The translations under genes and the position numbers were made by a program. The notes under the pieces were generated by a model. The model did not search any database. It was not told where the DNA came from and worked only from the letters and a program-made list of their open reading frames with translations. 64,000 nucleotides of DNA from Falsibacillus albus (GTDB lineage: Bacteria; Bacillota; Bacilli; Bacillales; DSM-25281): the NCBI RefSeq assembly GCF_003668575.1, contig NZ_RCVZ01000008.1, forward strand, positions 1 to 64,000, read 5' to 3'. Within the stretch, counting starts at the first letter, position 1; every line of letters begins with the position of its first letter. Of this stretch, positions 15,549 through 63,882 are shown piece by piece.

Positions 15549-16120
15549 ATGTTTAAAGGTTTATCTCAGGGTGTTAAGATAAGTATCACTCGCTCAATTT
15601 CAACCGCGTTTGAACAATATATGTCGAGAATTGAATGGGCTGAAGATAGATTCAATCTACAGGATTTTATTCAGGACTGGAAAGAGTACATACATACAAA
15701 TTCCTCATGGTACGGCAAAATTGATGAGCAAACCAAGAATGACCCTGTCTTTCATCAGGAATTAGCCAATAAAATCAACGAGACGATCGAAAAGATTCTT
15801 TCCGAAGAACCTACCAAGGAACAAATTGAAGAAATTGAAGAACTCCAATCGCAATCGGGGAAAGAATTTTCTTATTCCTGCAAAGCAGAAGCGAAATATG
15901 TGGCTGAGCAGTTGAATGAGGAATTAAAAAAAAAGCAGAACAGCTAGGGCCTGCCTCTGAAACGGATCTCGATTATGCGTCGCTTTTATATAATCTAATA
16001 TACGGCGAAGAACTGCCTCAAAGAAATTATCAACAAAGAGATATCCAATATATTATTAAGATGCTTTTACACAATCATAAATTTAATGAGGATCAGTTGT
16101 ATTCAAGTGTTGTTCATTAG
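15549..16120 (+). pseudogene. Frameshifted gene of unknown family, paralogue of the gene at 22756
   Basis: The first frame gives 132 residues and stops at 15947 just after a run of nine A (15926-15934). From 15935 the next frame continues to a stop at 16120 and reads DLDYASLLYNLIYGEELPQR, which aligns with DLEYASKLYRYVYNQGLPKR of the intact 196-residue paralogue at 22756-23346. One added A would restore a 190-residue protein. Both proteins look helical and soluble; no function is recognised. The start is set by AGGGGGGT 8-10 bases upstream. Alternatives to a true pseudogene are a sequencing error in the homopolymer, phase variation, or transcriptional slippage on A9. Confidence 0.75.
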
Positions 16121-16352: not shown

Positions 16353-16680
16353 ATGCAGGAACTGCCGTTTTCGGACGTAGATAATAGGGCAAACTGGGTG
16401 GAAGCATATATTGAGAAACTTGCTTCCAAAGGAATCGTCTTTGGAAAAACAGCATCCAACTATGCTCCATCAGTATCAATGACCAGAGGAGAACTCGCAG
16501 TCATCAGAAACTTTCTGATTATCAAGATCACAACAGCTTTCCTGCCTGGGCAACAAAGGATATTGAAAAAATGCTTCAATTTAATATCATGACAGGTCAC
16601 GCAAATGGGACTTTTAGTCTTTATGAAAATACCGATCGCGCGCAAATGGCCAAAATCATTGCTCAATTCCTTGAATTCTG
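16353..16680 (+). pseudogene. SLH-domain protein remnant
   Basis: The first frame reads FSDVDNRANWVEAYIEKLAS then GIVFG and MTRGELAV, a recognisable S-layer homology repeat. A second SLH-like repeat (FPAWATKDIEKMLQFNIMTG, then TDRAQMAKIIAQFLEF) continues in another frame from about 16510. At least one frameshift, no signal peptide and no ribosome binding site mark it as a decayed piece of a cell-surface protein that bound secondary wall polymer. A terminator-like hairpin follows. Confidence 0.65.
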
Positions 16681-17180: not shown

Positions 17181-17275
17181 GGGACGAGATACCAGAAAAA
17201 GGCAAACTTATTGAAAAGTAAGGACGCAAAGCTACAGATCTAAGGTGGTAATCACTAGGATGGCTGAGCTGCCTG
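17181..17275 (+). promoter_or_regulatory. Cyclic di-GMP-I (GEMM-I) riboswitch
   Basis: The region has the GEMM-I signatures in order: GGCAAA (17201-17206), a short stem CTTA/GTAAG capped by a GAAA-type loop, the highly conserved GGACGCAAAGC (17222-17232), ATCTAAGG and the P3 strand ATGGCTGAGCTGCC. GGCA (17201-17204) can pair with TGCC (17270-17273). Directly downstream, AAATACT and AGTATTT (17277-17293) form a 7-bp stem ending in the ribosome binding site of the next gene, a candidate expression platform. The only gene it can control is the sinI-like gene at 17309. Whether c-di-GMP switches it on or off cannot be read directly. Confidence 0.9.
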
Positions 17276-17308
17276 AAATACTATAAGTATTTTAGGAGGG
17301 GAAAACCT

Positions 17309-17425
17309 GTGGAGATAAAAGAACTGGATAAGGAATGGGTCGCATTGATTGATGAAGCATTGAAGATAGGTCTGACGGAGGAAGAAATTCGTTCTTTTTT
17401 ACAAACAGCTGCATTAAAAAAGTGA
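17309..17425 (+). CDS. sinI: SinI-type antirepressor peptide
   Basis: This is a 38-residue protein starting at GTG, 7 bases after AGGAGGGG. It reads MEIKELDKEWVALIDEALKI then GLTEEEIRSFLQTAA. The pattern ELDxEWVxLxxEA...EEIRxFL is the SinI fold, which in B. subtilis binds SinR and prevents it from repressing matrix genes. It lacks the longer C-terminal tail of B. subtilis SinI. It is encoded alone behind the c-di-GMP riboswitch and faces sinR tail to tail, unlike the B. subtilis tandem sinI-sinR. The two genes share a bidirectional terminator. Confidence 0.85.
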   Translation: MEIKELDKEWVALIDEALKIGLTEEEIRSFLQTAALKK

Positions 17426-17449
17426 GGGGGTGAAATGCCCCTCACTTTT
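17418..17449. terminator. Bidirectional terminator between sinI and sinR
   Basis: AAAAGTGAGGGG (17418-17429) and CCCCTCACTTTT (17438-17449) form a perfect 12-bp stem with A and T tracts on both sides. It overlaps the ends of both genes. Confidence 0.9.
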
Positions 17450-17762
17450 GATTTTGCTTCCATTTATTGAATTCAATGAATTCCTTGAATTCCTGTTTGG
17501 AAATCCCAGATTTCATAGCATCCTCTACGAGTCTCATCCAATCAGAATCCAAATCCTTTTCGTTGACTGTCTCTTGGATAAGTGAATCGATTGGCACATA
17601 TAAGGCTGCTGCCACTTTTTCTAAAAATTGAACAGAAGGATTCGTCTGCATATTCCGTTCAATAGAGCTAAGATAAGACTTCGCCACACCCGCTTTTTCA
17701 GCCAGTTCAGACATGGACATTTTTCTCTCTTTACGCAATTGGTTGATACGATCTCCAATCAT
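17442..17762 (-). CDS. sinR: Biofilm master repressor SinR
   Basis: SinR is a tetrameric DNA-binding repressor of matrix (eps, tapA-sipW-tasA) genes in B. subtilis. The 106-residue protein has an N-terminal helix-turn-helix domain (ELAEKAGVAKSYLSSIER then TNPSVQFLEKVA, about residues 14-48). Its C-terminal SinI-like dimerisation hook is DSDWMRLVEDAMKSGISKQE then FKEFIEFNKW (about 73-102). I chose the second of two adjacent ATG codons (17762), giving MIGDRINQLR as in B. subtilis. It is transcribed towards sinI. A 16-bp palindrome resembling a SinR operator lies about 65 bp upstream, suggesting autoregulation. Confidence 0.92.
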   Translation of the reverse strand: MIGDRINQLRKERKMSMSELAEKAGVAKSYLSSIERNMQTNPSVQFLEKVAAALYVPIDSLIQETVNEKDLDSDWMRLVEDAMKSGISKQEFKEFIEFNKWKQNQK

Positions 17763-17825
17763 CATGGTCCATCATCCTCATTCCCTTTTTTTGTTAACTT
17801 AAATTTTAGCATAGAAAACATAGTT

Positions 17826-17841
17826 GTTCTATATATTGAAC
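17826..17841. promoter_or_regulatory. SinR operator-like palindrome upstream of sinR
   Basis: GTTCTATATATTGAAC has two 6-bp arms separated by 4 bp, the same geometry as the B. subtilis operator GTTCTC-TAAA-GAGAAC, with one arm mismatch. Confidence 0.5.
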
Positions 17842-19418: not shown

Positions 19419-19434
19419 GTTCTTGATTAAGAAC
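19419..19434. promoter_or_regulatory. Perfect SinR operator-like palindrome
   Basis: GTTCTTGATTAAGAAC has perfect 6-bp arms and a 4-bp centre, the same 16-bp geometry as the operators bound by B. subtilis SinR. It lies about 60 bp upstream of the promoter of the Gln/Asn-repeat gene. Confidence 0.65.
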
Positions 19435-19477: not shown

Positions 19478-19505
19478 TTGATATTTATGAAAACGAGAAT
19501 ATACT
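19478..19505 (+). promoter_or_regulatory. Sigma-A promoter of the Gln/Asn-repeat gene
   Basis: TTGATA (5/6) and TATACT (5/6) are separated by 16 bp, giving a leader of about 45 bases before the start codon. Confidence 0.6.
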
Positions 19506-19557: not shown

Positions 19558-21084
19558 ATGAAAAAAAAGGTTGGCAGTATTGTAGGTGTTAGTGTTTTAG
19601 CGATTTCCATGATGGGAACTTCTGTGTTTGCAAATGAATTGGATTTAGTAAAACAAAACCAAAATTCAAATTATGGCTACGATATTTCATCACATTTCAA
19701 TGGATTGAATGTTCACCAAAAGCAAGATGGATACAGCCAGGTAGAGGAAAATCAACATGTAAGCGGCTTGGTATTTGGTTCACAAAATCAAAAGTCAACA
19801 GATTATTCAGTTGGTTCTCAAAATGCTGACTCCAAAAATCAGGAAGATAGCGAAATAACACAAAGTCAGAAATCACAAAGCTATAAATCCCAATCGGAAA
19901 GTACAGAAGGTTTCTTATTTGCATCAAGGCAAAATCAACAGAGCGAGAATACTTCTTTTGCAGATCAATATGCTAAAGGAAAAGCTGATAATCAAAAACA
20001 AACAGCATTCCATGATACAATGCAAAATGCTGCAAACTTTGGAATGTTTGGCATGGCTGATCAAAGGCAATCATCGATAAATGTTATGTTGGGTGAAGAT
20101 GGCCAACCTGGACAAAAACAAATTGCTAGAGGTTCGCACGATAACCAGGCACAATCCAACGTCAATTTAACTTCACAGGAAGCTTTAGCTGCATCAGGTT
20201 TAGGCATCACAAAGCAAAACCAAGGGTCATATAATGAATCGTCTGAAACGCAAAAGGCAAAAGGAAAATATAATTCACAAAAACAAAACACTCTAAATGT
20301 GACTTCTCAATCTGCAGCTGGAGCGGGAATCATATTTGGCGGCTCAAATCAAAGCCAGCAGTCTAGCAATTTTACGAAACTTAAACAAACTGCGAATGGC
20401 ATGAATAATAATCAAAAACAAAATACCATGAATGGAACCAGCCAAACGGCATTAGGGGCGGGAGGACTGTTAGGGCTAAATGAGCAATCCCAATCTTCGA
20501 TGAATGCAGGGCAACAGAAGCAAAAGGCAAAAGGAAATAATATTAATCAAAAACAAACTGGCATTAACGAAACATCCCAAACAGTACTAGGGGCGGGAGG
20601 TTTATTCGGGGCTAGTAAGCAATCCCAATCCTCAATGAATTTAGGAGGACAAAAACAGTATGCAAATGGTTCTAACATCAATCAAAAACAAACTGGCATT
20701 AATGAAACTTCTCAAACTGCAATGGGAGCAGGAGGATTAGTTGGTGCTAACAAACAAAATCAATCCGCAGCCAATGTTGAATGGGATAAGCAAACAGCTA
20801 CTGGAGTCGGGAATAAACAAAATCAAAATAGTTGGAATAATACTGAACAAAATCAAGTAGATTTAGCTATCGGTGGCTTAAATAAACAAAACCAAAATGT
20901 TGATAACTATGCTGAGAAAAAACAAAAAGCGGATGGAATGGGAATTAATCAAAATCAAGGTTCAATGGTTTATAATTCTCAGTCCCAATCCGGGGTAGGC
21001 GCTGGAAGCACTCAATCACAAAATTCCAGTTCAGTGGTAATCCAGAATCAATCCGCATCCAATACAGGGCTAATATTAGAATAA
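19558..21084 (+). CDS. Secreted Gln/Asn-rich repeat protein, curli-like (predicted amyloid)
   Basis: The 508-residue protein has a clear signal peptide (residues 1-26, ending TSVFA). The rest is a cysteine-free array of imperfect repeats of about 20-25 residues. Each opens with QxQ and carries a conserved pattern close to QxQxxxNxxxxxQxAxGxxxNxxQ, for example SQSSMNLGGQKQYANGSN and NQKQTGINETSQTAMGAGG. Gln, Asn, Gly and Ser spacing resembles curlin repeats (CsgA: Ser, Gln, Gly, Asn, Gln at fixed steps), which stack as a beta-solenoid amyloid. No transmembrane or sortase anchor is seen. A good ribosome binding site (GGAGGT) and promoter precede it, with a SinR operator-like palindrome upstream. 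A second Gln-rich secreted gene follows. I know of no Bacillus matrix protein (TasA, CalY) of this type; function as an extracellular fibre is inferred. Confidence 0.7.
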   Translation: MKKKVGSIVGVSVLAISMMGTSVFANELDLVKQNQNSNYGYDISSHFNGLNVHQKQDGYSQVEENQHVSGLVFGSQNQKSTDYSVGSQNADSKNQEDSEITQSQKSQSYKSQSESTEGFLFASRQNQQSENTSFADQYAKGKADNQKQTAFHDTMQNAANFGMFGMADQRQSSINVMLGEDGQPGQKQIARGSHDNQAQSNVNLTSQEALAASGLGITKQNQGSYNESSETQKAKGKYNSQKQNTLNVTSQSAAGAGIIFGGSNQSQQSSNFTKLKQTANGMNNNQKQNTMNGTSQTALGAGGLLGLNEQSQSSMNAGQQKQKAKGNNINQKQTGINETSQTVLGAGGLFGASKQSQSSMNLGGQKQYANGSNINQKQTGINETSQTAMGAGGLVGANKQNQSAANVEWDKQTATGVGNKQNQNSWNNTEQNQVDLAIGGLNKQNQNVDNYAEKKQKADGMGINQNQGSMVYNSQSQSGVGAGSTQSQNSSSVVIQNQSASNTGLILE

Positions 21085-21118: not shown

Positions 21119-21150
21119 GACGAATCGTTCTTATTAAAGAATGATTCGTC
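21119..21150. promoter_or_regulatory. Long inverted repeat with SinR-like core between the two repeat genes
   Basis: GACGAATC and GATTCGTC flank GTTCTT-ATTA-AAGAAT (21127-21142), again the SinR-type geometry with one mismatch. As RNA it would form a 14-bp stem, but no T run follows on the + strand, so it is not an ordinary terminator. It could be an operator or a stabilising or processing hairpin. Confidence 0.5.
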
Positions 21151-21187
21151 CTCAATAAAGACAAATTATAAGAGATAGGTGAAAAAT

Positions 21188-22615
21188 TTGATCAAACGTT
21201 TGCTGGCAATCTTATTCTCATTTCAAATCGTTTTTTATGGAGCAATATCTGCTTCAGCTGCCGAACCACCAGGAAATTCACAATCACAAGAGAAGGATGC
21301 AGTCTCTGCTCAAAATACGAGCACCACGCTAGACAATGGCAGTCAAGTCAATCAGGGTCAAGATACAAGTTTAAATGCCTCCCAAAACCAATCATCTAAT
21401 TCAAGTGATCAAGGAAACTCACAAAATCAAACTGTGAACAGTGGGATAATACAGGATCAGCAAAGTGATGGAAGCCAGGCTGGCCAGGGGCAATCCACTG
21501 GAGTTGTTGCCGGGCAAGAGCAGATGATCCACTCAAATGATAGTACAGATGCAGATCAAAACCAAAACGTTGAAACCAACTCTACACAAAACCAGGAAGT
21601 TTCGAATGCAACTCTTGATTCTGAAGGACAACAAACATCCATTAAGACTGGCCAGGGCCAGAATGTCACTACTGAACAGGGTGCGAGTATTGGTCAGATG
21701 CAGGTAACTGGGATCAATAATACTCAAATTCAAAATACAAACGGGAGTCAAGCGAATCAAAATCAAGAAAGCAATGCGGTTCTGTTCGAGCAGCAATATA
21801 CTGCTACTGATGGAGCGGCATCGCTGGAGCAGAAGCAGTCATTGGAAGCCGCTTCAGAAAATGGCACAAGCACATCTTCCAAAAAGGCATCAGCTGAGAT
21901 CAAAGCTGAAACAGAAAATAAATTGGATATTGTAAAATCTGCTGTCGACACAACGATTAAAGTTTTACAAGCGATAAAAATCAATGGTTCCGTGACCAAA
22001 TGGTTTGAAAAGGAGTTCACACTTGGAGGCGATGAACAAAATTTTCAGCAGGAATATCGCCAAAACTATAATTGGGGATATTTATTGATTAGAAATATTG
22101 CTTCTGTGAAAAAGTTAGAAGATGATGCGATAGAAGCCCTTATGGAAAGTCTAATTGTGTTAGAACGATTCAAACCAGTTTCCCCAAGAGCAGTAGATAA
22201 ATGCAGTATGGATAATGACAATGACTTATTAAATAATTGCTTGGAAGAGACTTATGGAACTGATCCAAATAAAGCTGATTCGGATGGGGATGGTTTGACT
22301 GATGGTATGGAGATATTGATCTATAAAACAAATGCATTGAAAAAGGATACAGATGATGACGGCTTAACAGATTACTTTGAAGTTCAATACTATTTGCAAT
22401 GGAATGGAAGCTTTGACAAAGAGAAAGGGTTCTTGCCAAATGCCCCATTCAATCCATTAAAAGTTGATGCAAATAATAATGGAATAGCCGATGGAAAAGA
22501 CGATGCAGATGGGGATGGAGTCCAAAACTCGCTAGAACAAAAATTCAAAACCAACCCATTGAAAACTGACTCAGACAACGACGGAATCACGGACTATGAT
22601 GAAATATTTATTTGA
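21188..22615 (+). CDS. Secreted Gln-rich protein with C-terminal calcium-binding TSP3-type repeats
   Basis: The product is about 475 residues with a signal peptide (MIKRLLAILFSFQIVFYGAI, cut near SASA). Residues about 30-225 are Gln/Asn/Ser-rich with recurring QxQ words, as in the preceding protein. A helical, less repetitive middle follows (about 230-330). The C-terminal 130 residues contain five or more DxDxDGLTD or DANNNGIAD motifs, the signature of thrombospondin type-3 Ca-binding repeats. I prefer TTG 21188 over GTG 21179 because AGGTGA is correctly spaced for it. It lies 100 bp behind the first repeat gene. A partner role, such as nucleating or anchoring the fibre, is an inference. Confidence 0.7.
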   Translation: MIKRLLAILFSFQIVFYGAISASAAEPPGNSQSQEKDAVSAQNTSTTLDNGSQVNQGQDTSLNASQNQSSNSSDQGNSQNQTVNSGIIQDQQSDGSQAGQGQSTGVVAGQEQMIHSNDSTDADQNQNVETNSTQNQEVSNATLDSEGQQTSIKTGQGQNVTTEQGASIGQMQVTGINNTQIQNTNGSQANQNQESNAVLFEQQYTATDGAASLEQKQSLEAASENGTSTSSKKASAEIKAETENKLDIVKSAVDTTIKVLQAIKINGSVTKWFEKEFTLGGDEQNFQQEYRQNYNWGYLLIRNIASVKKLEDDAIEALMESLIVLERFKPVSPRAVDKCSMDNDNDLLNNCLEETYGTDPNKADSDGDGLTDGMEILIYKTNALKKDTDDDGLTDYFEVQYYLQWNGSFDKEKGFLPNAPFNPLKVDANNNGIADGKDDADGDGVQNSLEQKFKTNPLKTDSDNDGITDYDEIFI

Positions 22616-22755: not shown

Positions 22756-23346
22756 ATGCATGGAATAATCATTGGGAAGGCAAAGGAGTTGCTCGTCCGC
22801 TCCTTTAGATCGTCTTTTATTCGGTATATGGCAGGGAAAGATTGGGTCAAAGAAAACTATCGGTTTGAAGAGTTTTTTCTGCAATGGAAGGAAGAAAGCT
22901 TGAAGAATGACAAATGGCATAAGTTGATTGCAGAAGAACTTAAGACACAGGCCACTTTTTTTGCAGAAGTTATCGGCGCCTATGAAGAGACGGTATCGGG
23001 CATCTTTACAGAACAGCCTACAAAAAGGCAGGAAAGGACAATAAGCAGTTTGTCTGAAAAATTAAGGCAGGAGCCCACGTCATGCTTTTGCATGGAGCAC
23101 GCTTCTTACATGATCGCCAAATTGAAAAAGAAGCTGTTTGAATTGGAAAAAACGAAGCCTGCTGACAAAAAAGACTTGGAATATGCTTCAAAGCTATATC
23201 GCTATGTCTATAATCAAGGGTTGCCGAAGAGGAATTATCGAAACGAAGATATTCAATTCATAACAGATGAGCTGAAGAAAATCATTTTCCGCACAATCGA
23301 CGTCCATTTCAACGACCCGTTCAAAAACTACGAAACCGTTCATTAG
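22756..23346 (+). CDS. Unknown-family protein, intact paralogue of the frameshifted gene at 15549
   Basis: This 196-residue protein is probably cytoplasmic and mostly helical, with many Lys/Glu and no signal peptide or membrane segment. It shares the N-terminal layout (SFRSSFIRYM...W...F..FFLQWKEE), the EQPTKRQ region and the C-terminal DLEYASKLYRYVYNQGLPKR block with the 15549 gene. The start at 22756 follows AGGTGGA. A GTTCTTT word (full SinR half-site) sits 62 bp upstream, which may be chance. No function is recognised. The two copies bracket the sinI/sinR and Gln/Asn-repeat region. Confidence 0.65.
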   Translation: MHGIIIGKAKELLVRSFRSSFIRYMAGKDWVKENYRFEEFFLQWKEESLKNDKWHKLIAEELKTQATFFAEVIGAYEETVSGIFTEQPTKRQERTISSLSEKLRQEPTSCFCMEHASYMIAKLKKKLFELEKTKPADKKDLEYASKLYRYVYNQGLPKRNYRNEDIQFITDELKKIIFRTIDVHFNDPFKNYETVH

Positions 23347-54406: not shown

Positions 54407-55150
54407 ATGGAAGAGACGATCAGTTTAAAAGAATTGATGCAGACATTAAGAAAGAGATTGGCTCTTATCACAACGATCACGCTTGTGGCAGCAATCGTCA
54501 GCGCAGTTGTCAGCTTCTTTGTATTAACCCCGATCTACCAAGCGTCCACACAGATTTTGGTGAATAAGACGAACGACCAAAATGCAATGTACAACACGAA
54601 TGAAGTGCAGACAAATCTCCAATTGATTAATACATACAATGTCATCATGAAAAGTCCCGCCATCTTAGATAAAGTCATCGACCAATTACATCTAGACATG
54701 ACCGCTGCCCAGTTAAATGGAAAAATCACGGTCCAAAGCGAAAAGGATTCGCAGGTGGTCAACGTTTCCGTGCAGGATCCAGATCCGAAAAAAGCTGCAA
54801 CAATCGCGAATAAAATCGCAGACGTATTCCAAACAGACATCGTACACATCATGAATGTCGACAATGTCAGCATCCTTGCCAAAGCAGATGCGAAAGGGAA
54901 ATCCCCCATCAAACCGAAGCCGCTGCTGAATGTTGCGATTGCGATTGTCGTCGGCCTGATGGCAGGTGTCGGACTCGCCTTCCTATTAGAGTACTTGGAT
55001 AACACAATCAAGACCGAGCAGGATATCGAAAGGGGATTGGAGCTCCCTGTATTGGGAGTCATTGCGAACATTCCGGATACCGACTCCACGCACGAATTGT
55101 CGCGTTCCGAGCGCAAGTCGAAAGTAAGGGGTGAAAGTTTTGGCGCCTAA
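54407..55150 (+). CDS. tkmA: Tyrosine-kinase modulator / chain-length regulator (Wzz family)
   Basis: 247 residues with two membrane helices (about 18-40 and 177-197) flanking an extracytoplasmic Wzz domain. TkmA (YwqC) activates the tyrosine kinase PtkA through its cytoplasmic C-terminal tail and helps set polysaccharide chain length. The gene overlaps ptkA, the classic Bacillus arrangement. The ribosome binding site is TTAGGAGGC. The EpsA paralogue cannot be excluded, but linkage with the ptpZ-type phosphatase favours ywqC. Confidence 0.88.
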   Translation: MEETISLKELMQTLRKRLALITTITLVAAIVSAVVSFFVLTPIYQASTQILVNKTNDQNAMYNTNEVQTNLQLINTYNVIMKSPAILDKVIDQLHLDMTAAQLNGKITVQSEKDSQVVNVSVQDPDPKKAATIANKIADVFQTDIVHIMNVDNVSILAKADAKGKSPIKPKPLLNVAIAIVVGLMAGVGLAFLLEYLDNTIKTEQDIERGLELPVLGVIANIPDTDSTHELSRSERKSKVRGESFGA

Positions 55151-55841
55151 GAAATCAAAGAAAGACGTGCTGAACAATAAGCGGAAGCTGATCACGAAGA
55201 ACGAACCAAAATCTCCTGTATCGGAGCAATATAAAACAATCCGGACGAATATTCAGTTCTCTGCTGTGGATCAGGAAATGAGATCGATCATGGTCACATC
55301 TGCAGGGCCTGGGGACGGGAAATCGACAACGGTCGCGAACCTTGCCGTCGTCTTTGCCCAGCAAGGAAACAAAGTCCTGCTCGTCGATGCGGATTTACGA
55401 AAGCCAACTGTGCACTACACATTTGGGGTGACGAATGTCCGCGGCTTGACGAACGTGCTTTCGAATCAGTTGGAAATCGAAGATGCCGCAGTTTCCACGG
55501 AAGTGGATGATCTTTTCATCCTGACGAGCGGTCCGATCCCGCCGAACCCTGCAGAACTGATGGGCTCAAGGCTGATGAAGAATTTCTTGGAAAAAGCCTA
55601 TGAGCAATTTGATATCGTCCTCTTCGACACTCCGCCTGTCCTGGTCGTAACGGATGGTCAGGTGTTGTCCAACCATTGTGATGGAACGGTGTTGGTCGTT
55701 TCAAGCGGACGGACAGAAATGGAAGCAGCGGGAAAAGCGAAGGATATACTCGAAAATACGAAAAGCAAGCTGCTTGGTGTCGTATTGAATAACAAAAAAG
55801 CTAAAGATACGTCATATTATTACTATTATGCTACCAAATAG
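55140..55841 (+). CDS. ptkA: Bacterial tyrosine kinase (BY-kinase)
   Basis: A cytoplasmic ATPase-like tyrosine kinase of about 233 residues with Walker A SAGPGDGKSTT, Walker A' LLVDADLRKP and Walker B IVLFDTPPV, and the C-terminal autophosphorylation cluster SYYYYY. It controls polysaccharide synthesis and phosphorylates other proteins, including UDP-glucose dehydrogenase and SSB in B. subtilis. TTG 55140 is preferred to GTG 55131 because AAGGGGTGA is correctly spaced. It overlaps the tkmA end. Confidence 0.9.
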   Translation: MAPKKSKKDVLNNKRKLITKNEPKSPVSEQYKTIRTNIQFSAVDQEMRSIMVTSAGPGDGKSTTVANLAVVFAQQGNKVLLVDADLRKPTVHYTFGVTNVRGLTNVLSNQLEIEDAAVSTEVDDLFILTSGPIPPNPAELMGSRLMKNFLEKAYEQFDIVLFDTPPVLVVTDGQVLSNHCDGTVLVVSSGRTEMEAAGKAKDILENTKSKLLGVVLNNKKAKDTSYYYYYATK

Positions 55842-55946
55842 GCAAAAATCGACAAAATACACCCGTTTACAAAAAAAGTAAACTTGATAGTATTAGATTA
55901 TAGGAACTTAAGACTATTGATTTGGAAATAAAAAGGAGGGGTTCGT

Positions 55947-56711
55947 ATGATTGATTTGCACTGCCATATCTTATCAAACGTTGACGATGGCGCCCAGAAC
56001 ATGTCTGAAAGCATCGAAATGGCGAAAGAGGCTGTTCGGGAAGGGATCCATACCATCGTTGCAACCCCTCATCATAAAAATGGAAGAGACGAGAATGCCG
56101 GTGGAGATATTTCGGCAGCAGTCAGACAGCTGAACGAAGTCCTTTCCGAGCAGCGGATTCCATTGACGGTGCTGCCAGGCCAAGAAGTGCGCATCTACGG
56201 CGAGCTCCTTGATGATCTTCATGACAGTGTCATCCCGTTGAATATCACCTCACAATACATATTTATTGAATTGCCTTCCAACCATGTTCCGCGCTATACG
56301 GAGCAGCTCTTCTATGACATTCAGATGCAAGGACTTGTACCGGTGATCGTTCATCCGGAGAGAAACGCAGAAATCATCGAGAACCCGGACAAACTTTATA
56401 AACTTGTCAAAAAGGGATCGTGCACCCAAGTGACAGCTTCAAGCGTCGTAGGGAGATTCGGGAAAAAGATCCAAAGATTCACCCATCATTTAATCGAAGC
56501 AAACTTGACTCATTTTGTCGCTTCCGATGCCCACAACGTTACGACCAGAAGCTTTCATATGAGAAAAGCCTATGACCTGATTGACAAAGAATTTGGGACA
56601 CAGATAAAGTTTATGCTTATGGACAACGCGCAGCTTTTGATTGATGGGCACAACATTTATAGGGATGTGCCGGAACGCATCAAGAGAAAGAAATTTTTAG
56701 GAATCTTTTAA
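55947..56711 (+). CDS. ptpZ: PHP-type tyrosine-protein phosphatase
   Basis: This 254-residue manganese-dependent phosphatase of the PHP fold (YwqE/CpsB) removes phosphate from the BY-kinase and its targets. Metal ligands are visible in MIDLHCHIL, ATPHHKNG, VIVHPERN and SDAHNV. AAAAGGAGGGG precedes the ATG. It completes the tkmA-ptkA-ptpZ regulatory trio; the polysaccharide enzymes follow after a structured intergenic region. Confidence 0.93.
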   Translation: MIDLHCHILSNVDDGAQNMSESIEMAKEAVREGIHTIVATPHHKNGRDENAGGDISAAVRQLNEVLSEQRIPLTVLPGQEVRIYGELLDDLHDSVIPLNITSQYIFIELPSNHVPRYTEQLFYDIQMQGLVPVIVHPERNAEIIENPDKLYKLVKKGSCTQVTASSVVGRFGKKIQRFTHHLIEANLTHFVASDAHNVTTRSFHMRKAYDLIDKEFGTQIKFMLMDNAQLLIDGHNIYRDVPERIKRKKFLGIF

Positions 56712-56780
56712 TGTGACAATAAGGGATTCTTTTTGTTTTGAATCTTTTTATATACGACCAAGGGTATAGAAAATATTGGT

Positions 56781-56890
56781 AATGCCTCCTCACCACTATC
56801 AATGGAGGCACTCGGCCATGCTGTGGGCCACAGCAGACCTTAGACGCGAGTCGTCGAGAGTATGGCGTGAGGGAGGGTTGGATGCCCTGA
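56781..56890 (+). promoter_or_regulatory. Structured leader RNA, possible EAR-type antitermination element
   Basis: A G+C-rich island in A+T-rich surroundings can fold extensively: GCCTCC/GGAGGC (56784-56807), TGCTGTG/CACAGCA (56819-56835) and GACG/CGTC (56843-56855). CCTCCTCAC (from 56786) can alternatively pair with GTGAGGGAGG (56867-56876) as a closing stem. Its position inside an exopolysaccharide operon, just ahead of the biosynthetic genes, is where EAR elements occur in Bacillales. I cannot confirm the EAR consensus by eye. A TAATGAA/TTTCATTA hairpin (about 56917-56956) follows, which could be the terminator it overrides. Confidence 0.5.
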
Positions 56891-57044
56891 ATTTTCAATA
56901 TTCCGAAATGAATATTTAATGAAGCTACCTGTCAAGACGCATGTCGTTTCATTAGATATTTATTTTTGAATGTCGATTTTATTTTAGTAGAGCAATAAAG
57001 AATGCTGTTTTTAAAAAAAATGTTTTTTTATGAAAAATGTGCAT

Positions 57045-57109
57045 TGTTGATTTACGCGGAGAGGTGCTCGCTTTCCGCGGGAGTCTCGCACCTTCCGCTC
57101 CAATCAGCC
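57045..57109. repeat. Bacillaceae intergenic repeat, internally deleted copy
   Basis: Only the two ends of the longer element remain: GTTGATTTACGCGGAG with GCTCGCTTTCCGCGGG, and GAGTCTCGCACCTTCCGCTC. It lies in the 490-bp gap before the dehydratase gene. Confidence 0.75.
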
Positions 57110-57205
57110 AACAAAACTAGTACCTATCCATGTTAAAACACATAAAACAACATTCTTTTAAAAAATGTTATAAAGAAAAACTTTTTAGAAAAGAAGGGAT
57201 ATTAG

Positions 57206-59026
57206 TTGAGCTATGAAAAGCGATTATCATTGTTGATCCTTTTGGATTCGATTATCGTGCTGACGGCCATATACATTGGCTATTTTACTCTTCACCCCTA
57301 TTTAAGCTTTTATACATTCCCGGTGCTGGTGATGAGTTCGATTACCCTATTGATTTCTCATCATGTATTTGCCTTTATTTATCGTTTATATCAAAAAGCA
57401 TGGGAGTATGCGAGTGTGGGGGAAATGATGGCGATCATCCGGGCGGTCACGCTCTCGATCATTGCTACCGGCATCGTTCAATACTTGCTGAATGGGGATA
57501 TTTATATCCGTGTCCTGGGCATCACGTGGATGCTGCATGTCATCCTGATTGGGGGATCAAGATTTTCTTGGCGGATGTACCGGGATCACTACATAAAACA
57601 AAAAACAGACAAAAAACGATCACTGATCATCGGGGCAGGGGCGGCAGGGACGATGCTTGTCCGTCAGCTGTTAAAAAGCAATGATACCGACATGCTGCCA
57701 GTAGGATTTGTCGATGATGATCCGATGAAGCAGAAACTGCAATTCTACGGTGTAACGGTTTATGGGAAAACAAAGGAAATCCCTATGATCGTTGAAAAAC
57801 ATAATATAGAGAATATTGTTATCGCCATTCCTTCGATGGGGCGAAAAGAGATTCAAAGAATATATCAGGAATGCAGCAAGACGAATGCAAAGACACAGAT
57901 TATGCCGATGATCGAAGATATCGCCTCTGGGAAAGTGTCCGTCAATCAATTCCGCGATGTACAGGTTGAGGACTTGCTTGGCCGTGAGCCGGTGGAATTG
58001 GACATACAGAGCATATCCAAGAGACTGGCGGGAAAGACGATTCTGGTCACTGGGGCAGGTGGTTCGATCGGTTCGGAAATCTGCCGCCAGGTAAGCAGAT
58101 TCAAACCGAAGAAACTGCTCCTATTAGGTCACGGAGAATATTCCATCTATCAAATCGATATGGAGCTCAAACAAAAACATCAATCCGAATTTGAAATCAT
58201 ACCTATTATAGCTGATGTACAAGATAGAGCCCGTATTTTTGAAGTGATGGAATACCACTCCCCGGATGTTGTCTACCACGCAGCTGCCCATAAGCATGTA
58301 CCGCTAATGGAATTCAATCCGAAGGAAGCCGTCAAGAACAACGTAATCGGAACGAAAAACGTGGCAGAAGCGGCAGATACGTTCGGTGTAAATACATTTG
58401 TCCTTGTGTCATCTGATAAAGCCGTAAACCCGACAAACGTAATGGGTTCGACGAAGAGGATCGCGGAAATGGTCATCCAAAACCTGGACAAACAAAGTCA
58501 GACGAACTTTGTCGCCGTCCGATTCGGGAATGTCCTAGGCAGCCGGGGCAGCGTCATCCCACTATTCAAAAAGCAAATCCAGACGGGCGGTCCCGTGACG
58601 GTCACCCATCCGGAAATGACGCGATACTTTATGACGATACCGGAAGCATCCAGACTTGTCATCCAGGCAGGCGCACTGGCGAAAGGCGGCGAGATCTTCG
58701 TCTTGGATATGGGAGAACCGGTAAAGATTGTAGATCTTGCCGAAAACCTGATCAAATTATCGGGATATACAATGGACGAAATCCCGATCAAGTTTGCCGG
58801 CATCCGTCCCGGGGAGAAGATGTTCGAGGAGCTGCTCGGTTCTGAGGAAGTCCATCCGCAAGAAATCTTCCCGAAAATTTTTGTCGGGAAAACGGTGGAG
58901 TTCGATTATTCCAGAGTCGATCATTTAATAGAGAAATATGCAGGGGAAAGTTCTGCTGCGATTAAGGAATATGTACTGGGGCTGGCGAATAAGAATGAAA
59001 AGCTGCTTGTCAAATATGTAAATTAA
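57206..59026 (+). CDS. Membrane-bound nucleotide-sugar 4,6-dehydratase (CapD/PglF/EpsC type)
   Basis: 606 residues: four predicted membrane helices (about 8-120), a first Rossmann segment (IIGAGAAGTMLVRQLL) and a second SDR domain with LVTGAGGSIGSEICRQ at about residue 280. The active-site block SSDKAVNPTNVMGSTKR has Met in place of the usual Tyr, as in this dehydratase family. It should convert UDP-GlcNAc to the 4-keto-6-deoxy sugar that the aminotransferase and acetyltransferase downstream turn into an acetylated diamino sugar. It starts at TTG after AGAAGGGA. Confidence 0.9.
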   Translation: MSYEKRLSLLILLDSIIVLTAIYIGYFTLHPYLSFYTFPVLVMSSITLLISHHVFAFIYRLYQKAWEYASVGEMMAIIRAVTLSIIATGIVQYLLNGDIYIRVLGITWMLHVILIGGSRFSWRMYRDHYIKQKTDKKRSLIIGAGAAGTMLVRQLLKSNDTDMLPVGFVDDDPMKQKLQFYGVTVYGKTKEIPMIVEKHNIENIVIAIPSMGRKEIQRIYQECSKTNAKTQIMPMIEDIASGKVSVNQFRDVQVEDLLGREPVELDIQSISKRLAGKTILVTGAGGSIGSEICRQVSRFKPKKLLLLGHGEYSIYQIDMELKQKHQSEFEIIPIIADVQDRARIFEVMEYHSPDVVYHAAAHKHVPLMEFNPKEAVKNNVIGTKNVAEAADTFGVNTFVLVSSDKAVNPTNVMGSTKRIAEMVIQNLDKQSQTNFVAVRFGNVLGSRGSVIPLFKKQIQTGGPVTVTHPEMTRYFMTIPEASRLVIQAGALAKGGEIFVLDMGEPVKIVDLAENLIKLSGYTMDEIPIKFAGIRPGEKMFEELLGSEEVHPQEIFPKIFVGKTVEFDYSRVDHLIEKYAGESSAAIKEYVLGLANKNEKLLVKYVN

Positions 59027-59041
59027 AGGAGGATTGGTGAA

Positions 59042-59935
59042 ATGCAAAAAATTAAAAAAGCAATCATTCCGGCAGCCGGCTTAGGGACGCGCTTCCTCCC
59101 GGCGACCAAGGCACAGCCGAAGGAAATGCTGCCAATCGTCGATAAACCGACGATCCAATATATCATCGAAGAAGCCGTTGCGTCCGGCATCGAAGACATC
59201 ATCATCGTCACGGGCCGCGGCAAACGGGCGATCGAGGATCACTTTGATAAATCGTATGAATTGGAAGAAACGCTTGCCAAGAAGGGGAAGCTTGAGCAGC
59301 TGGAAGAGGTCCAGGGCATATCGAAGATGGCCAATATCCATTACATACGCCAGAAGGAACCGCTGGGCCTCGGCCATGCCATCGCCTGCGCTAGCCGCTT
59401 CATTGGGGACGAACCTTTTGCCGTTCTTTTAGGGGATGATATCGTCCACTCACCGGATAACCCGTGCTTGAAGCAATTGATCGATGTGTATAGCCGTTAT
59501 AATTCGACGGTCATCGGTGTCAAAGAGGTGCCGGAAGAAGAAGTATCCAAATATGGCGTCATCTCGATTGCAAACAGCGGAAGCAATCAAGGTGTGTTCC
59601 ACATTAATGATCTTGTAGAAAAACCTAAACAGGAAGAAGCACCATCCAACTACGCCATCATGGGCCGTTACATCCTAAGACCGGAAATCTTTGACCTCCT
59701 TGATAATTTAACCCCGGGGGCAGGCAGCGAAATCCAACTGACCGATGCGCTCAAGAAGTTGAACGAAATGCAGATGGTCGTCGGCTGTGAGTTTGAGGGT
59801 CAGCGTTATGACGTCGGGGATAAGCTCGGCTTCATTAAAGCGACGGTAGAATTTGCCCTGCAGCGGGATGATTTGAAGGACGATGTGCTGGATTATTTTA
59901 AGAGTATTTTGAGTAAGGAGCAGGTGCAAAAGTAG
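59042..59935 (+). CDS. galU: UTP-glucose-1-phosphate uridylyltransferase
   Basis: A 297-residue pyrophosphorylase that makes UDP-glucose from UTP and glucose-1-phosphate. The N-terminal signature [20 protein letters not shown] and the [11 protein letters not shown] region are intact, as are LLGDDIV and [12 protein letters not shown]. It follows the dehydratase by 15 bp with AAGGAGG and ends at a terminator, closing the G+C-richer half of the locus. In Bacillus this enzyme is also called GtaB; here it supplies precursor to the polysaccharide. Confidence 0.93.
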
Positions 59936-59970
59936 GTTCTACACTTTAAATAGGTTGAGCTAAGAGAATG

Positions 59971-60004
59971 AGGCTGGAGCTTTGAGGGGATTCGGCCTTT
60001 TTTC
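59971..60004 (+). terminator. Terminator of the tkmA-galU segment
   Basis: AGGCTG (59971-59976) pairs with CGGCCT (59993-59998, one G-U) and is followed by T. The next 180 bp to the aminotransferase hold no gene; a TATAAT at 60051-60056 lacks a -35 partner. Confidence 0.6.
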
Positions 60005-60188
60005 TTTATTTGATGCTGCACATAAAGAAGGCGTTGATTGAATTGGTATATATAATAGGAAGAAACTCGGATAAAAGTGCTTATAGAGTTAATCGGATTT
60101 GTGGATTAGTAGTTGGTTGGATTAGAAGTTTGAAGATTCCAATCAAGTACTAATCTACTAAATAATGATCCATATGAGGAAGGAAGAC

Positions 60189-61325
60189 ATGAAGATGGAA
60201 ACGACAAAATTGAATGAAAGAATATTTCTTTCATCTCCACATATGAGTGATGAAGGTTATGAAATGAAATATGTCAAAGAAGCTTTTGATACAAATTGGA
60301 TTGCTCCTCTTGGAGAAAACGTGAATGAATTTGAAAAAGAACTGGCGGCTAAGGTTGGTTCGAAAGCGGCTGCTGCTCTATCTTCTGGTACGGCAGCAAT
60401 TCATTTAGCATTAAAAGGAGCAGGAGTTGGAGAAGGGGATGTTGTTTTCTGTCCGACCCTCACTTTTTCCGCAACTGCCAATCCGATCATCTATCAAAAT
60501 GCTAAACCGGTTTTCATCGATAGCAATCATGAAACATGGAATATGTGTCCAAAGGCTTTAGAAGAAGCGTTCGAGAGATATCCAGAAGTGAAAGCTGTCA
60601 TCGTTGTTCATCTTTACGGTTTATCTGCTGACATGGATAAGATAATGGAAATTTGTAAGAAACATAATGTAGTGGTAATAGAGGATGCTGCAGAGTCACT
60701 TGGAGGGTATTATAAAGGTCAGCACACGGGGACATTTGGTGATTATGGTATCTTCTCTTTTAATGGAAACAAGATCATTACTACTTCCGGTGGTGGTATG
60801 CTGGTTTCAAATGATGAAAAGAAGGTGGCAAAAGCAAGATTCTGGGCTACTCAGTCGAGAGATCAAGCTAGGCATTATCAACACTCTGAATTAGGGTTTA
60901 ATTACCGTATGAGCAATATTGTTGCAGGGATTGGTAGAGGGCAGCTAAAGGTATTAGATCAGAGAGTGGAGAAGAAAAAATATATTTTTGAGTTTTATAA
61001 GAGAGAGCTTAGTGACATAGAAGGAGTGCAATTCATGCCTGTTAATGATTGGGATGAACCGAACTATTGGTTAAGTTCCATGACATTAAATGGCCAGGTT
61101 AGGCCGAATGATGTTATGGAGGCTCTTGAAAAAGAGAATATCGAATCGAGGCCAATTTGGAAGCCGATGCATATGCAGCCGTTTTTTATAGAGTATGATT
61201 TCGTTGGAACGGATGTTGCTGAAGAGTTATTCGAGAATGGTATATGTTTACCCTCTGATACTAAGATGACGGATGTAGATTTGAAAAGGATCGTTAAGAT
61301 CATAAAAGGGTTGTGGTTAGATTAA
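60189..61325 (+). CDS. DegT/DnrJ/EryC1-family PLP aminotransferase (PglE/EpsN type)
   Basis: This aminotransferase of about 378 residues is typical of nucleotide-sugar amination. PLP-site features are ALSSGTAAIHLAL, EDAAESLGG and the Schiff-base Lys region FSFNGNKIITTSGGGML. It should aminate the 4-keto sugar made by the dehydratase at 57206. Several ATG codons are possible; 60189 follows AGGAAGGA. From here on the DNA is visibly more A+T-rich than upstream. It overlaps the next gene by one base. Confidence 0.9.
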   Translation: MKMETTKLNERIFLSSPHMSDEGYEMKYVKEAFDTNWIAPLGENVNEFEKELAAKVGSKAAAALSSGTAAIHLALKGAGVGEGDVVFCPTLTFSATANPIIYQNAKPVFIDSNHETWNMCPKALEEAFERYPEVKAVIVVHLYGLSADMDKIMEICKKHNVVVIEDAAESLGGYYKGQHTGTFGDYGIFSFNGNKIITTSGGGMLVSNDEKKVAKARFWATQSRDQARHYQHSELGFNYRMSNIVAGIGRGQLKVLDQRVEKKKYIFEFYKRELSDIEGVQFMPVNDWDEPNYWLSSMTLNGQVRPNDVMEALEKENIESRPIWKPMHMQPFFIEYDFVGTDVAEELFENGICLPSDTKMTDVDLKRIVKIIKGLWLD

Positions 61326-61972
61326 TGAATAATACAAAAGTTGGGATCTATAGAAGATTTTTAAAAAGGCCAATAGATTTCATTTTATCTTTAATTGCTA
61401 TCATTTTTCTTATTGTCATTCCAGTACTTCCTACAATAGCAATCCTAGTGAGAGTGAAGTTAGGGAGCCCCATATTATTTAAGCAAAGTCGGCCAGGACT
61501 TAATGAAAAGACTTTCATGATGTATAAATTTAGGACGATGACAGATGAAAGAGATAAGGATGGGGAATTACTTCCTGATCATATTCGTTTGACGAGGTTT
61601 GGAAGTTTTTTACGTTCTACATCACTTGATGAGCTTCCAGAACTTTTTAATATTCTCAAGGGGGATATGTCGATTATAGGACCAAGACCATTATTGGTTC
61701 AGTACCTTCCACTTTACAATAAACATCAAAAAAGACGACATGAAGTTAGACCGGGTTTGTCCGGTTTAGCTCAGGTGAGCGGAAGGAATGCAATTAGTTG
61801 GGAAGATAAATTCTATTATGATGTCGAATACGTGGATAATATAAGTTTCAGAAACGACTGTAACATTATTTTATTGACCATTAAGAAGGCTTTTGTAAGA
61901 GAAGGTATCAACTCCGAAACTGCAGCTACGATGGAAAACTTTAAAGGGACAAAGAAGGAAATGAAAATATGA
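61325..61972 (+). CDS. Undecaprenyl-phosphate sugar-1-phosphate transferase (PglC/EpsL type)
   Basis: This monotopic phosphoglycosyl transferase, about 215 residues, starts synthesis of the lipid-linked repeat unit. An N-terminal membrane-embedded helix (about 18-42) is followed by the conserved FKQSRPGLNEKTFMMYKFRT, the catalytic Asp-Glu in STSLDELPELFNIL and GPRPLLVQY. It starts at the ATG within TAATG, coupled to the preceding stop. It probably transfers the diacetylated amino sugar phosphate. Confidence 0.92.
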   Translation: MNNTKVGIYRRFLKRPIDFILSLIAIIFLIVIPVLPTIAILVRVKLGSPILFKQSRPGLNEKTFMMYKFRTMTDERDKDGELLPDHIRLTRFGSFLRSTSLDELPELFNILKGDMSIIGPRPLLVQYLPLYNKHQKRRHEVRPGLSGLAQVSGRNAISWEDKFYYDVEYVDNISFRNDCNIILLTIKKAFVREGINSETAATMENFKGTKKEMKI

Positions 61973-62592
61973 AAAACAAACTTTTGATAATTGGGGCCAG
62001 TGGACATGGGAAAGTTGTTGCCGACATTGCAATAAAAATGAATAAATGGAAAGAGATTTTCTTTCTTGATGATAATGAAAGCATCACTTCCTCAATGGGG
62101 ATAGAAGTGATCGGAACCTCAGATAAAGCATTCGATTACATAGACGAGTTTGAAATTTTCGTCGGTATAGGTAATAACTCTACTAGAGAGAACGTTCAAG
62201 AGAAGCTGGAAACAGCTGGTGCCAGCATCCCTATTTTAATTCATCCAAGTTCAGTGGTCGGAGAACAAGTGGAAATCGGGAACGGGACAGCTGTAATGGC
62301 AGGGGCCGTTATTAACTGCTGCACTAAAATAGGGAATGGCTGCATTGTTAATACAGGTTCTACAATTGATCATGATAATTGTATCGAGGATTTTGTACAT
62401 ATTTCACCAGGATCACATTTGGCAGGGACGGTCAAAGTTGGAAAAGGATCTTGGTTAGGAATTGGAAGTATTATAAGTAATAACCTTAACATTACTAGTG
62501 ATTGCCAAGTGGGAGCTGGTTCTGTTGTTATTCAGGATATTACTGAAACAGGGGTTTATGTTGGTGCACCAGTAAGAAAAATAGGCTCTTAA
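61969..62592 (+). CDS. Sugar O/N-acetyltransferase, NeuD/PglD family
   Basis: 207 residues: an N-terminal Rossmann-like part (LLIIGASGHGKVVADIA) and a left-handed beta-helix of hexapeptide repeats (about 90-195, e.g. VGEQVEIGNGTAVMAGAVIN). The catalytic His lies in STIDHDNCIEDFVHISP. With the dehydratase and aminotransferase it completes a route to an acetamido-dideoxy sugar of bacillosamine type. It overlaps the preceding gene by 4 bp. Confidence 0.9.
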   Translation: MKNKLLIIGASGHGKVVADIAIKMNKWKEIFFLDDNESITSSMGIEVIGTSDKAFDYIDEFEIFVGIGNNSTRENVQEKLETAGASIPILIHPSSVVGEQVEIGNGTAVMAGAVINCCTKIGNGCIVNTGSTIDHDNCIEDFVHISPGSHLAGTVKVGKGSWLGIGSIISNNLNITSDCQVGAGSVVIQDITETGVYVGAPVRKIGS

Positions 62593-62622
62593 TCATAATT
62601 GTTGTAACTGAGGTGTAAAGAA

Positions 62623-63882
62623 TTGAAGAAAAAAATATGGTTGTGGAATCATTACGCGACTGATATGTACAAAAATCGTGGAGGAAGGCACTATTGGTTT
62701 GCAGAGAACCTAATTAAACAAGGTTACGAACCAACGGTTTTTTGTGCAAATACTTTTCATAATAAATCAGATTTTATCGATACAAAAAATAAAAAATATA
62801 CTATAGATATCCTAGATAATATCCCCTTTGTTTTTGTTAGGACGACTACCGCATTAGGTAATGGCATTGATCGAGTGAAAAATATGGGGTTATTTTATTT
62901 AAACTTATTTTCTGTAGTAAAAGAATTTGTAAAGCTTAACGGTAAGCCGGATGTAATTCTTGCCTCTAGTGTACACCCATTAACTATGGTTGCAGGAATA
63001 AAAATTGCTAAAAAACTTGGTGTTCCTTGTATTTGTGAGATTAGGGACTTATGGCCAGAGGCTATCTTTTCATTTAACAAAGCAAAGGAAAGAAGTCTAT
63101 TAGGACGAGTCCTTACGGCTGGTGAACATTGGATTTATAGAAATGCAGCTGCTCTGGTCTTTACTAAAGAGGGAGATACTGATTATATTCTTGAAAAAAA
63201 TTGGGATACCGCACAAGGTGGAAAAATAAATCTTTCAAAATGCCATTATATTAACAATGGTGTAGATATAAATGCATTTGAGATTGCTTCTTCAGAAAAT
63301 AAAGTTGATGATGAAGATTTATGTGCAGATAAGTTCAATGTTGTCTATGTAGGAACAATTCGACCTGTTAATAATGTAGGGAACCTACTAGATGCTGCCG
63401 CACTACTAAAAGATGAAAACAATATTCAATTTTTAATATACGGTGACGGTAATCAAAGAGAAATGTTAGAAAAAAGAATTGCTGATGAAAATCTAACTAA
63501 TGTAAAAATGAAAGGCTTTGTAAATAAACGTTCCATACCATATATATTGAGCAAATCATCGGTGAACATCCTTAATTATTCACATACACAATACAACTGG
63601 GCAAGAGGTAATAGCTCTAACAAATTATTTGAATATATGGCATCAGGAAAACCTATTATTTCAACTGTGAAAATGGGGTATTCAATATTAGAAAAGTATA
63701 AGTGTGGAATAGAACTCGAAAATAGTAATCCCCAAGAACTAGCAAAGGCAATTTTAAATATAAAAAATATGTCCAAAGAAGAATATAACGTTATAGGTTC
63801 AAATGCTAAGAGGGGTGCAAATGATTTCGATTTCCAAAAGTTAACTAAAAAATTGATAGATGTTGTTGAAGAAGTAGACTAA
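62623..63882 (+). CDS. Glycosyltransferase family 4 protein
   Basis: A 419-residue GT-B fold glycosyltransferase with an N-terminal acceptor domain beginning WLWNHYATDMYKNRGGRHYW and a C-terminal nucleotide-sugar domain with VVYVGTIRPVNNVGNLLDAA and the EX7E-like NKLFEYMASGKPIIST. It resembles WbuB-type transferases that add the second sugar. The start is TTG 62623 after GAGGTG. The gene is distinctly A+T-rich, which suggests separate acquisition from the backbone. Confidence 0.85.
   Translation: MKKKIWLWNHYATDMYKNRGGRHYWFAENLIKQGYEPTVFCANTFHNKSDFIDTKNKKYTIDILDNIPFVFVRTTTALGNGIDRVKNMGLFYLNLFSVVKEFVKLNGKPDVILASSVHPLTMVAGIKIAKKLGVPCICEIRDLWPEAIFSFNKAKERSLLGRVLTAGEHWIYRNAAALVFTKEGDTDYILEKNWDTAQGGKINLSKCHYINNGVDINAFEIASSENKVDDEDLCADKFNVVYVGTIRPVNNVGNLLDAAALLKDENNIQFLIYGDGNQREMLEKRIADENLTNVKMKGFVNKRSIPYILSKSSVNILNYSHTQYNWARGNSSNKLFEYMASGKPIISTVKMGYSILEKYKCGIELENSNPQELAKAILNIKNMSKEEYNVIGSNAKRGANDFDFQKLTKKLIDVVEEVD

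Follow-up and report, generated by a model that had tools for sequence, protein, structure and literature searches.

TasA/TapA and CalY of Bacillus are secreted matrix fibre proteins under SinI/SinR control, and the SinR-controlled fibre, TasA, has no tandem repeats. Curli-type fibres are known mainly from diderms, and curli are linked to cyclic diguanosine monophosphate (c-di-GMP). The curlin kernel is N-x-Psi-x-Psi-x-Q (PMC10192328), and one Firmicutes strain stands alone among the curli systems reported in the accessible part of PMC3521004. Here we analyze a 64,000-nucleotide stretch of Falsibacillus albus DNA (contig NZ_RCVZ01000008.1, positions 1 to 64,000; the window), which holds a gene for a glutamine-repeat protein, open reading frame (ORF) 1, followed by a partner gene, ORF2, with sinI- and sinR-like genes upstream. 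We propose, with a probability of roughly 0.6, that this pair encodes a two-subunit matrix fibre controlled by c-di-GMP and SinR, with ORF1 as major and ORF2 as minor subunit, most likely a functional amyloid. Among the open-licence PMC papers listed in searches, judged by title and start of abstract, none describes the pair.

Repeat pattern of ORF1

ORF1 (19558-21084, + strand) encodes 508 amino acids and its start is preceded by a GGAGG ribosome-binding site. A Sec-type leader, MKKKVGSIVGVSVLAISMMGTSVFA, was recognized by eye at the N-terminus. The protein has no cysteine and is rich in Q (14.8%), S (12.6%), N (12.2%) and G (11.2%). Within residues 27-508 the motif QxQ occurs 27 times (mean 11.5 and maximum 21 in 2000 shuffles) and QxQxxxN 15 times (mean 1.4, maximum 6). 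Chaining of QxQ-anchored units gave 21 units spaced by 21-28 residues. At the DNA level, Tandem Repeats Finder reported 2.5 copies of a 135-base (45-residue) repeat with 75% matches at 20404-20736; given this period, repeats in that segment were duplicated two at a time. The first-pass annotation had described a secreted protein of imperfect repeats in which polar residues recur at fixed spacing. The leader, the lack of cysteine and motif counts far above those of shuffles bear this out, and the repeats are confirmed. Its proposed motif, QxQxxxNxxxxxQxAxGxxxN, by eye fits one of two alternating unit types. Neither Pfam nor NCBIfam has a family that matched ORF1 at E ≤ 1. By sequence it had no relative in the PDB at E ≤ 10, and neither had a profile of nine ORF1 repeat pairs (A1).

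Repeat statistics were collected over five ORF1 proteins, from the window and from genomes G152, G125, G410 and G575 (508, 781, 627, 267 and 355 residues; 21, 35, 26, 11 and 14 units, 107 in all; values for the five are given in this order throughout). Most units are spaced by 21 residues, with the consensus x-Q-x-Q-x-S-x-N-x-T-x-Q-x-Q-x-A-x-G-x-x-[NI]. Units were anchored on the two leading glutamines only, and entropies were read at unanchored positions. Across the 107 units these were 1.1-2.4 bits at even positions 6-18 and 3.2-3.7 bits at odd positions 5-17. The odd-even difference is 1.64 bits, and none of 300 shuffles exceeded 0.20; taken by itself, the window protein has a difference of 1.11, with 0.38 as the highest value among 500 shuffles. 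Residues at the free positions vary widely by homologue, with E/D in G152, frequent K in the window and G410, and G/S/T in G575. Because alternate positions are conserved and those between them are free, the repeats look like a stacked β core with an open outer surface. The G152 homologue (locus L047, 6976-9321, − strand) has mostly E/D at its free positions (26% E+D overall), for a very acidic surface, and lies beside an ORF2 with TSP3-like repeats.

Two unit types alternate along the chain and differ in the turn after G18, which is polar in one type and hydrophobic in the other. Mean numbers of hydrophobic residues at positions 19-21 in odd and even units are 0.82/1.90 in the window, 0.39/2.00 in G152, 0.00/1.92 in G125, 1.83/0.20 in G410 and 1.14/1.43 in G575, where alternation is clear in the second half only. 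The in-phase stretch of a unit spans 17-19 residues. Since positions 9-11 contain no proline and only 11-15% G/P/N, one long strand per unit is possible, arranged either as two units per solenoid turn or as an antiparallel sheet. A unit could also form an arch as in curli, bending over three residues after the conserved N8. The parity pattern fits each of these arrangements, whether solenoid (two strands, 42 residues), arch (curli-like, 21 residues) or antiparallel sheet of long strands. In the two-strand solenoid and the arch, the large glutamines at one end would face the small A/G at the other.

The partner gene and its distribution

ORF2 (21179-22615, + strand; 478 residues, GTG start) is the proposed minor or anchor subunit and carries a leader of its own. 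A QxQ-repeat region (approximately 21278-21838), with spacings of 10-14 and 22-24 residues, is followed by a core domain of about 99 residues (21890-22186) that is absent from Pfam and whose profile was used to find distant members. Four stretches of TSP3-type calcium-binding repeats complete the protein (approximately 22211-22612; PF18884, E 9.2e-16, 57.8 bits, cut-off 25). A hairpin with a 14-bp stem (21119-21150, + strand) separates the two genes. A stable hairpin lies 3' of ORF1 in all five loci folded, in predictions made without shuffled comparison sequences, and may cause more ORF1 than ORF2 to be produced.

ORF1 precedes ORF2 in all five loci where both are visible, the window included, and the other four (G152, G125, G410 and G575) represent three families (f20, f60 and f58). 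In a sixth, G526, ORF2 stands at the contig start, so the presence of ORF1 cannot be judged. BLAST with ORF1 found one of 101 genomes, its own. Among 397 genomes of the order, profile A1 recovered three (own, G125 and G152), and the ORF2 core-domain profile five of 398 in the class at E ≤ 0.001 (own, G410, G526, G575 and G595). G595 (E 6.9e-4) was dropped as a chance match, covering 52 of the 99 positions in a lipoprotein-like frame with no QxQ repeats. The same profile found two of 17 genomes in the family of G152, both already known, and a wider ORF2 profile found one of 398 in a sample of the phylum, again its own. This wider profile, which contains the hits themselves, was also run on the orders to which G575 and G410 belong, in sets limited to genomes already sampled, and added no new members. 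G001, the sole other genome of the window's genus in the samples, matched neither ORF1 nor ORF2. Against GTDB contigs ORF1 had no match, and the front part of ORF2 had one, in Fredinandcohnia quinoae SECRCQ15. The pair is rare and scattered.

Ten of 101 genomes gave ORF2 relatives by BLAST (E ≤ 0.001), nine of which were not counted, as they match only from residue 337 on, the TSP3 part. Similarly, the G152 ORF2 had plasmid matches in 26 records, and among the 20 matches listed all lie within the TSP3 part. ORF1 had no match in plasmids or phages, nor did the G410 ORF1 in plasmids; viral contigs yielded no relative, and an origin in a mobile element was set aside. The C-terminal module of ORF2 varies. 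The window protein has TSP3 repeats, and alignment shows them in G152 and G125 too; the modules of G410, G575 and G526 had no Pfam match, and G526 retains one TSP3-like stretch. The ORF2 homologues of G526 (L056, 54-1934, +) and G410 (L057, 7197-8645, +) have in common a C-terminal region, LNGPEFQDN...HTLVKEDG, that belongs to no Pfam family and in G526 is preceded by the TSP3-like stretch. In G410, genes that by eye resemble those for exopolysaccharide (EPS) or capsule follow closely behind the pair (L057, 9503-15504, +).

These features could also belong to a secreted matrix or surface protein that is not an amyloid, in which a stable β-rod, as solenoid or long-strand sheet, serves unpolymerized as stalk, adhesin or glue under SinI/SinR control. 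Any stacked β rod fits the parity pattern, the free positions differ widely between homologues, and many unrelated proteins contain TSP3 stretches, among them one with an adhesin annotation. Against such a rod, ORF1 shows no LPXTG or lipobox by eye and no SLH or other anchor domain in Pfam. Near-identical core stacking along the whole chain is moreover what open-ended polymerization requires, and paired repeat proteins would resemble known fibre systems. We consider the unpolymerized rod unlikely.

Putative control by SinR and c-di-GMP

Only two genes in the whole genome match PF08671 over the cut-off, and both lie at 17.3-17.6 kb, 2 kb upstream of ORF1; the third-best match, at 23.8 bits, falls below it. 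One is a sinI-like anti-repressor gene (17309-17425, +; 38 residues, GTG start, 48.7 bits). It is preceded by a c-di-GMP-I riboswitch aptamer (17191-17276, +; RF01051, 83.7 bits, E 5.2e-15, gathering threshold 35) with no non-standard pair marked. The other, on the opposite strand, is a sinR/slrR-like repressor gene (17442-17765, −) encoding 107 residues with a helix-turn-helix (HTH; PF01381) and a SinI-type domain (PF08671). A hairpin with a T-rich tail lies between these convergent genes (17418-17449) and is likely a shared terminator. A putative c-di-GMP riboswitch before sinI is listed for B. methanolicus MGA3, and no fibre pair is named in the accessible part of that source (PMC4342826). 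The link of riboswitch and sinI thus has a printed precedent, and ORF1 represents an unnamed protein family.

A sinR-like gene recurs in four of the six loci, and the riboswitch with sinI in three. In G410 and G575 riboswitch, sinI and sinR likewise adjoin the pair. In G526 a sinR-like gene lies 266 bases after ORF2, its SinI domain scoring 26.2 bits (cut-off 31.4), and no riboswitch was found within the 9 kb of that locus. The SinR-like proteins of these three loci are 51-57% identical to that of the window.

B. subtilis SinR binds an inverted repeat of GTTC-N8-GAAC spacing, as in the duplex TTTGTTCTCTAAAGAGAACTTA (PMC3163267). Three exact GTTC-N8-GAAC palindromes occur in the window, one inside a gene at 9492 and two upstream of the sinR-like gene (17826-17841) and of ORF1 (19419-19434). 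With up to one mismatch, the motif occurs 13 times in the 2153 bp before the five ORF1 genes, at least once before each, compared with 56 times in the remaining 128,351 bp of these loci. Shuffled upstream regions gave a mean of 0.6 and a maximum of 5 (1000 shuffles). Other spacings (4-14) gave 0-4 matches and other orders of the motif letters 0-6, the 6 being TCGT-N8-ACGA. The boxes before ORF1 are exact in the window, G410 and G575. A further box between ORF1 and ORF2 is exact in G575, G152 and G125, absent in G410, and in the window carries one mismatch and lies inside the hairpin (21127-21142). Promoter-like hexamers TTGATA-16-TATACT precede ORF1 (19478-19505, +) as a consensus match only, shuffles giving equally many. 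The first-pass annotation had placed ORF1 under SinR. With sinI-sinR 2 kb away, operators upstream and a neighbourhood that recurs in other genomes, such control is likely, as judged from these sequence features.

Other elements of the window were also recorded. The stretch from sinI to ORF2 is flanked by genes for two paralogous small proteins (15549-15947 and 22756-23346, both +; 30% identity over 115 residues) that match no Pfam family over cut-off. A short ORF at 16353-16592 (+; DNA of 33-38% GC) encodes one SLH domain (PF00395, 42 bits) and may be the remnant of an S-layer protein gene. An EPS-type cluster (54407-63882, +), named by eye, comprises Wzz-like, tyrosine kinase, PHP phosphatase and sugar enzyme genes, with an epsC/EAR RNA (RF01735) at 56777-56888. 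Two Bacillaceae-1 RNAs (RF01690) lie on the − strand at 36007-35941 and 45203-45136.

Fibre model and known systems

From the repeat pattern, the recurring pair, the riboswitch and SinI/SinR matches and the operator pattern we infer the following mechanism. ORF1 would be exported through Sec, with its 21 units then stacking so that the alternate Q, Q, S, N, T, Q, Q, A and G form a tight polar β core, with the residues between them facing solvent. Further ORF1 molecules could then extend the stack at its ends and so build a fibre, which would most likely be a functional amyloid. The QxQ stretch of ORF2 could template or cap this fibre, and its β domain and, here, the calcium-type TSP3 repeats could anchor it to the wall or the matrix. 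The SinR-type repressor would keep the pair off through the GTTC-N8-GAAC operators. SinI, made behind the c-di-GMP-I riboswitch, would remove SinR, and c-di-GMP would in this way set fibre production, in either direction. A spore-surface role, also suggested in the first-pass annotation, gained no support, as nothing pointing there turned up, in work that included no search aimed at it.

Several observations weigh against this mechanism. The G152 and G125 loci have no riboswitch and, among ORFs of at least 80 residues in 16 kb inspected by eye without a profile, no sinR-like gene; the boxes before their ORF1 genes each carry one mismatch. The operator motif was chosen after the regions had been inspected, although its spacing agrees with the independent B. 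subtilis work. A stricter form, GTTCT-N3-9-AGAAC, has one match in the window, a number reached in 23 of 100 shuffles. For the EPS-type genes (54-64 kb), no operator with up to one mismatch was found between 49942 and 59749. Forcing the aptamer fold freed the ribosome-binding site of sinI in one of three leaders only, its mean unpaired fraction changing from 0.14 to 0.59 in G575, from 0.25 to 0.25 in the window and from 0.53 to 0.44 in G410. Pfam recognized no wall anchor in ORF2. Structure prediction also gave low confidence. AlphaFold2 on a 180-residue piece of ORF1, with six alignment rows and no CsgA-type positive control, reached a mean predicted local distance difference test score (pLDDT) of 41.8, and ORF2 without its TSP3 part a mean of 46.9. 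A protein so rich in Q, S, N and G may be disordered.

This last point leads to a different account, in which ORF1 is secreted, of low complexity and for the most part disordered; its Q/N/S/G composition would favour hydration or phase separation of the matrix, and its repeats would be drift after tandem duplication. The low AlphaFold2 confidence for both proteins and the dominance of Q, S, N and G in ORF1 favour it. However, conserved and free positions alternate strictly over 17-19 residues. That families share this alternation even though their free positions have turned over argues for selection on a strand-like structure. We regard disorder as quite improbable. The poor ORF1 model shows eight strands of 15-18 residues. 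In the ORF2 model the core domain reaches a pLDDT of about 62-78 over model residues 231-300 and is nearly all β. With this low-confidence ORF2 model, Foldseek returned nothing at E ≤ 0.001 (best 5e-3, β-barrels and fluorescent proteins), and the best VIA-align match had Z 5.8 with a root-mean-square deviation of 3.0 over 100 residues.

The resemblance to curli raised the question of whether ORF1 is itself a curlin, and the profile check called for in the first-pass annotation did not place it there. PF07012 matched CsgA and CsgB of E. coli K-12 as a positive control. It had no match in ORF1 or ORF2 at E ≤ 1, in the genome at E ≤ 10 or in the four ORF1 homologues at E ≤ 0.1. The curlin kernel occurs 4, 6, 6, 0 and 2 times in the five ORF1 proteins, within the range of shuffles in all of them (means 2.4, 1.8, 2.5, 0.6 and 2.1; maxima 8, 7, 7, 3 and 7), and most units are without it. 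A different kernel, QxQx[SAVTG]xN, is enriched, with 14, 29, 13, 6 and 4 copies against shuffle means of 0.7, 0.5, 0.6, 0.2 and 0.5, the 4 of G575 equalling its shuffle maximum. ORF1 was accordingly rejected as a curlin on the missing PF07012 match and the unenriched kernel. No csg protein was seen among eight window proteins in a general Pfam scan, which included no profile search aimed at csgG, csgE or csgF.

A true but highly divergent CsgA/CsgB system in a monoderm would share the repeat length of 21-24 residues, the Q/N-rich polar core and the two paired repeat proteins, and in the window, G152 and G125 the curlin kernel does lie above the shuffle mean, yet within range. Apart from the PF07012 result, profile-profile comparison with the E. 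coli CsgA/CsgB repeats (two curlin proteins only) gave 0.5% probability over one aligned column, and the major-minor gene order is the reverse of csgBA. We judge common descent with curlins highly improbable. By the tests run, ORF1-ORF2 appears analogous to curli and not homologous. In both systems secreted proteins would be built from repeats of about 21-24 residues with an alternate polar Q/N/S core, come as a pair of related subunits and be linked to biofilms and to c-di-GMP. In contrast to N-x-Psi-x-Psi-x-Q with Q-x10-Q (PMC10192328), the ORF1 core reads Q-x-Q-x-S-x-N-x-T-x-Q-x-Q-x-A-x-G, and its in-phase positions run for 17-19 residues without the mid-repeat X-G-X-X arc. The partner differs too, ORF2 bearing a core domain with no Pfam match together with TSP3 repeats. 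These D-x-D-x-D-G repeats are shared with TSP3-repeat proteins (PF18884), from which ORF2 differs in that its C-terminal module is not constant across homologues.

Should ORF1 polymerize, it would represent an independent monoderm solution that needs no outer-membrane exporter, and its simple 21-residue code could be used for designed fibres. The neighbourhood also opens to direct test the route by which c-di-GMP gets to the matrix switch of Bacilli. In three genomes, each from a different family, the candidate sensor is an RNA before sinI that lies close to both the repressor and the likely target of that repressor. A fuller form of the fibre reading can be put forward tentatively, at somewhat below even odds. 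This would be a new Gram-positive functional amyloid family with an alternating Q-Q-S-N-T-Q-Q-A-G core, in which each strand is about 17-19 residues long. Its two unit types would alternate so that one ribbon edge carries polar turns and the other hydrophobic ones. Its dedicated major/minor pair would substitute for TasA in scattered Bacilli, forming the matrix fibre that SinI/SinR control, and be wired to c-di-GMP by the riboswitch on sinI.

Like TasA/TapA and CalY, the pair would form a secreted matrix fibre under SinI/SinR control. ORF1 and ORF2 differ in having no Pfam relation to these proteins. PF12389, which we take to be the TasA/CalY family, matched its B. subtilis control but neither ORF1 nor ORF2, and nothing in the genome at E ≤ 1; this supports the first-pass annotation, which had called TasA and CalY unrelated. 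Since the genome is without a PF12389 match, the pair may fill the role of TasA beside sinI-sinR. The switch itself shares with that of B. subtilis a small SinI-domain protein, a repressor with HTH and SinI domains and the GTTC-N8-GAAC operator spacing (PMC3163267). It differs in that sinI and sinR are convergent here, with sinI placed behind a c-di-GMP-I riboswitch.

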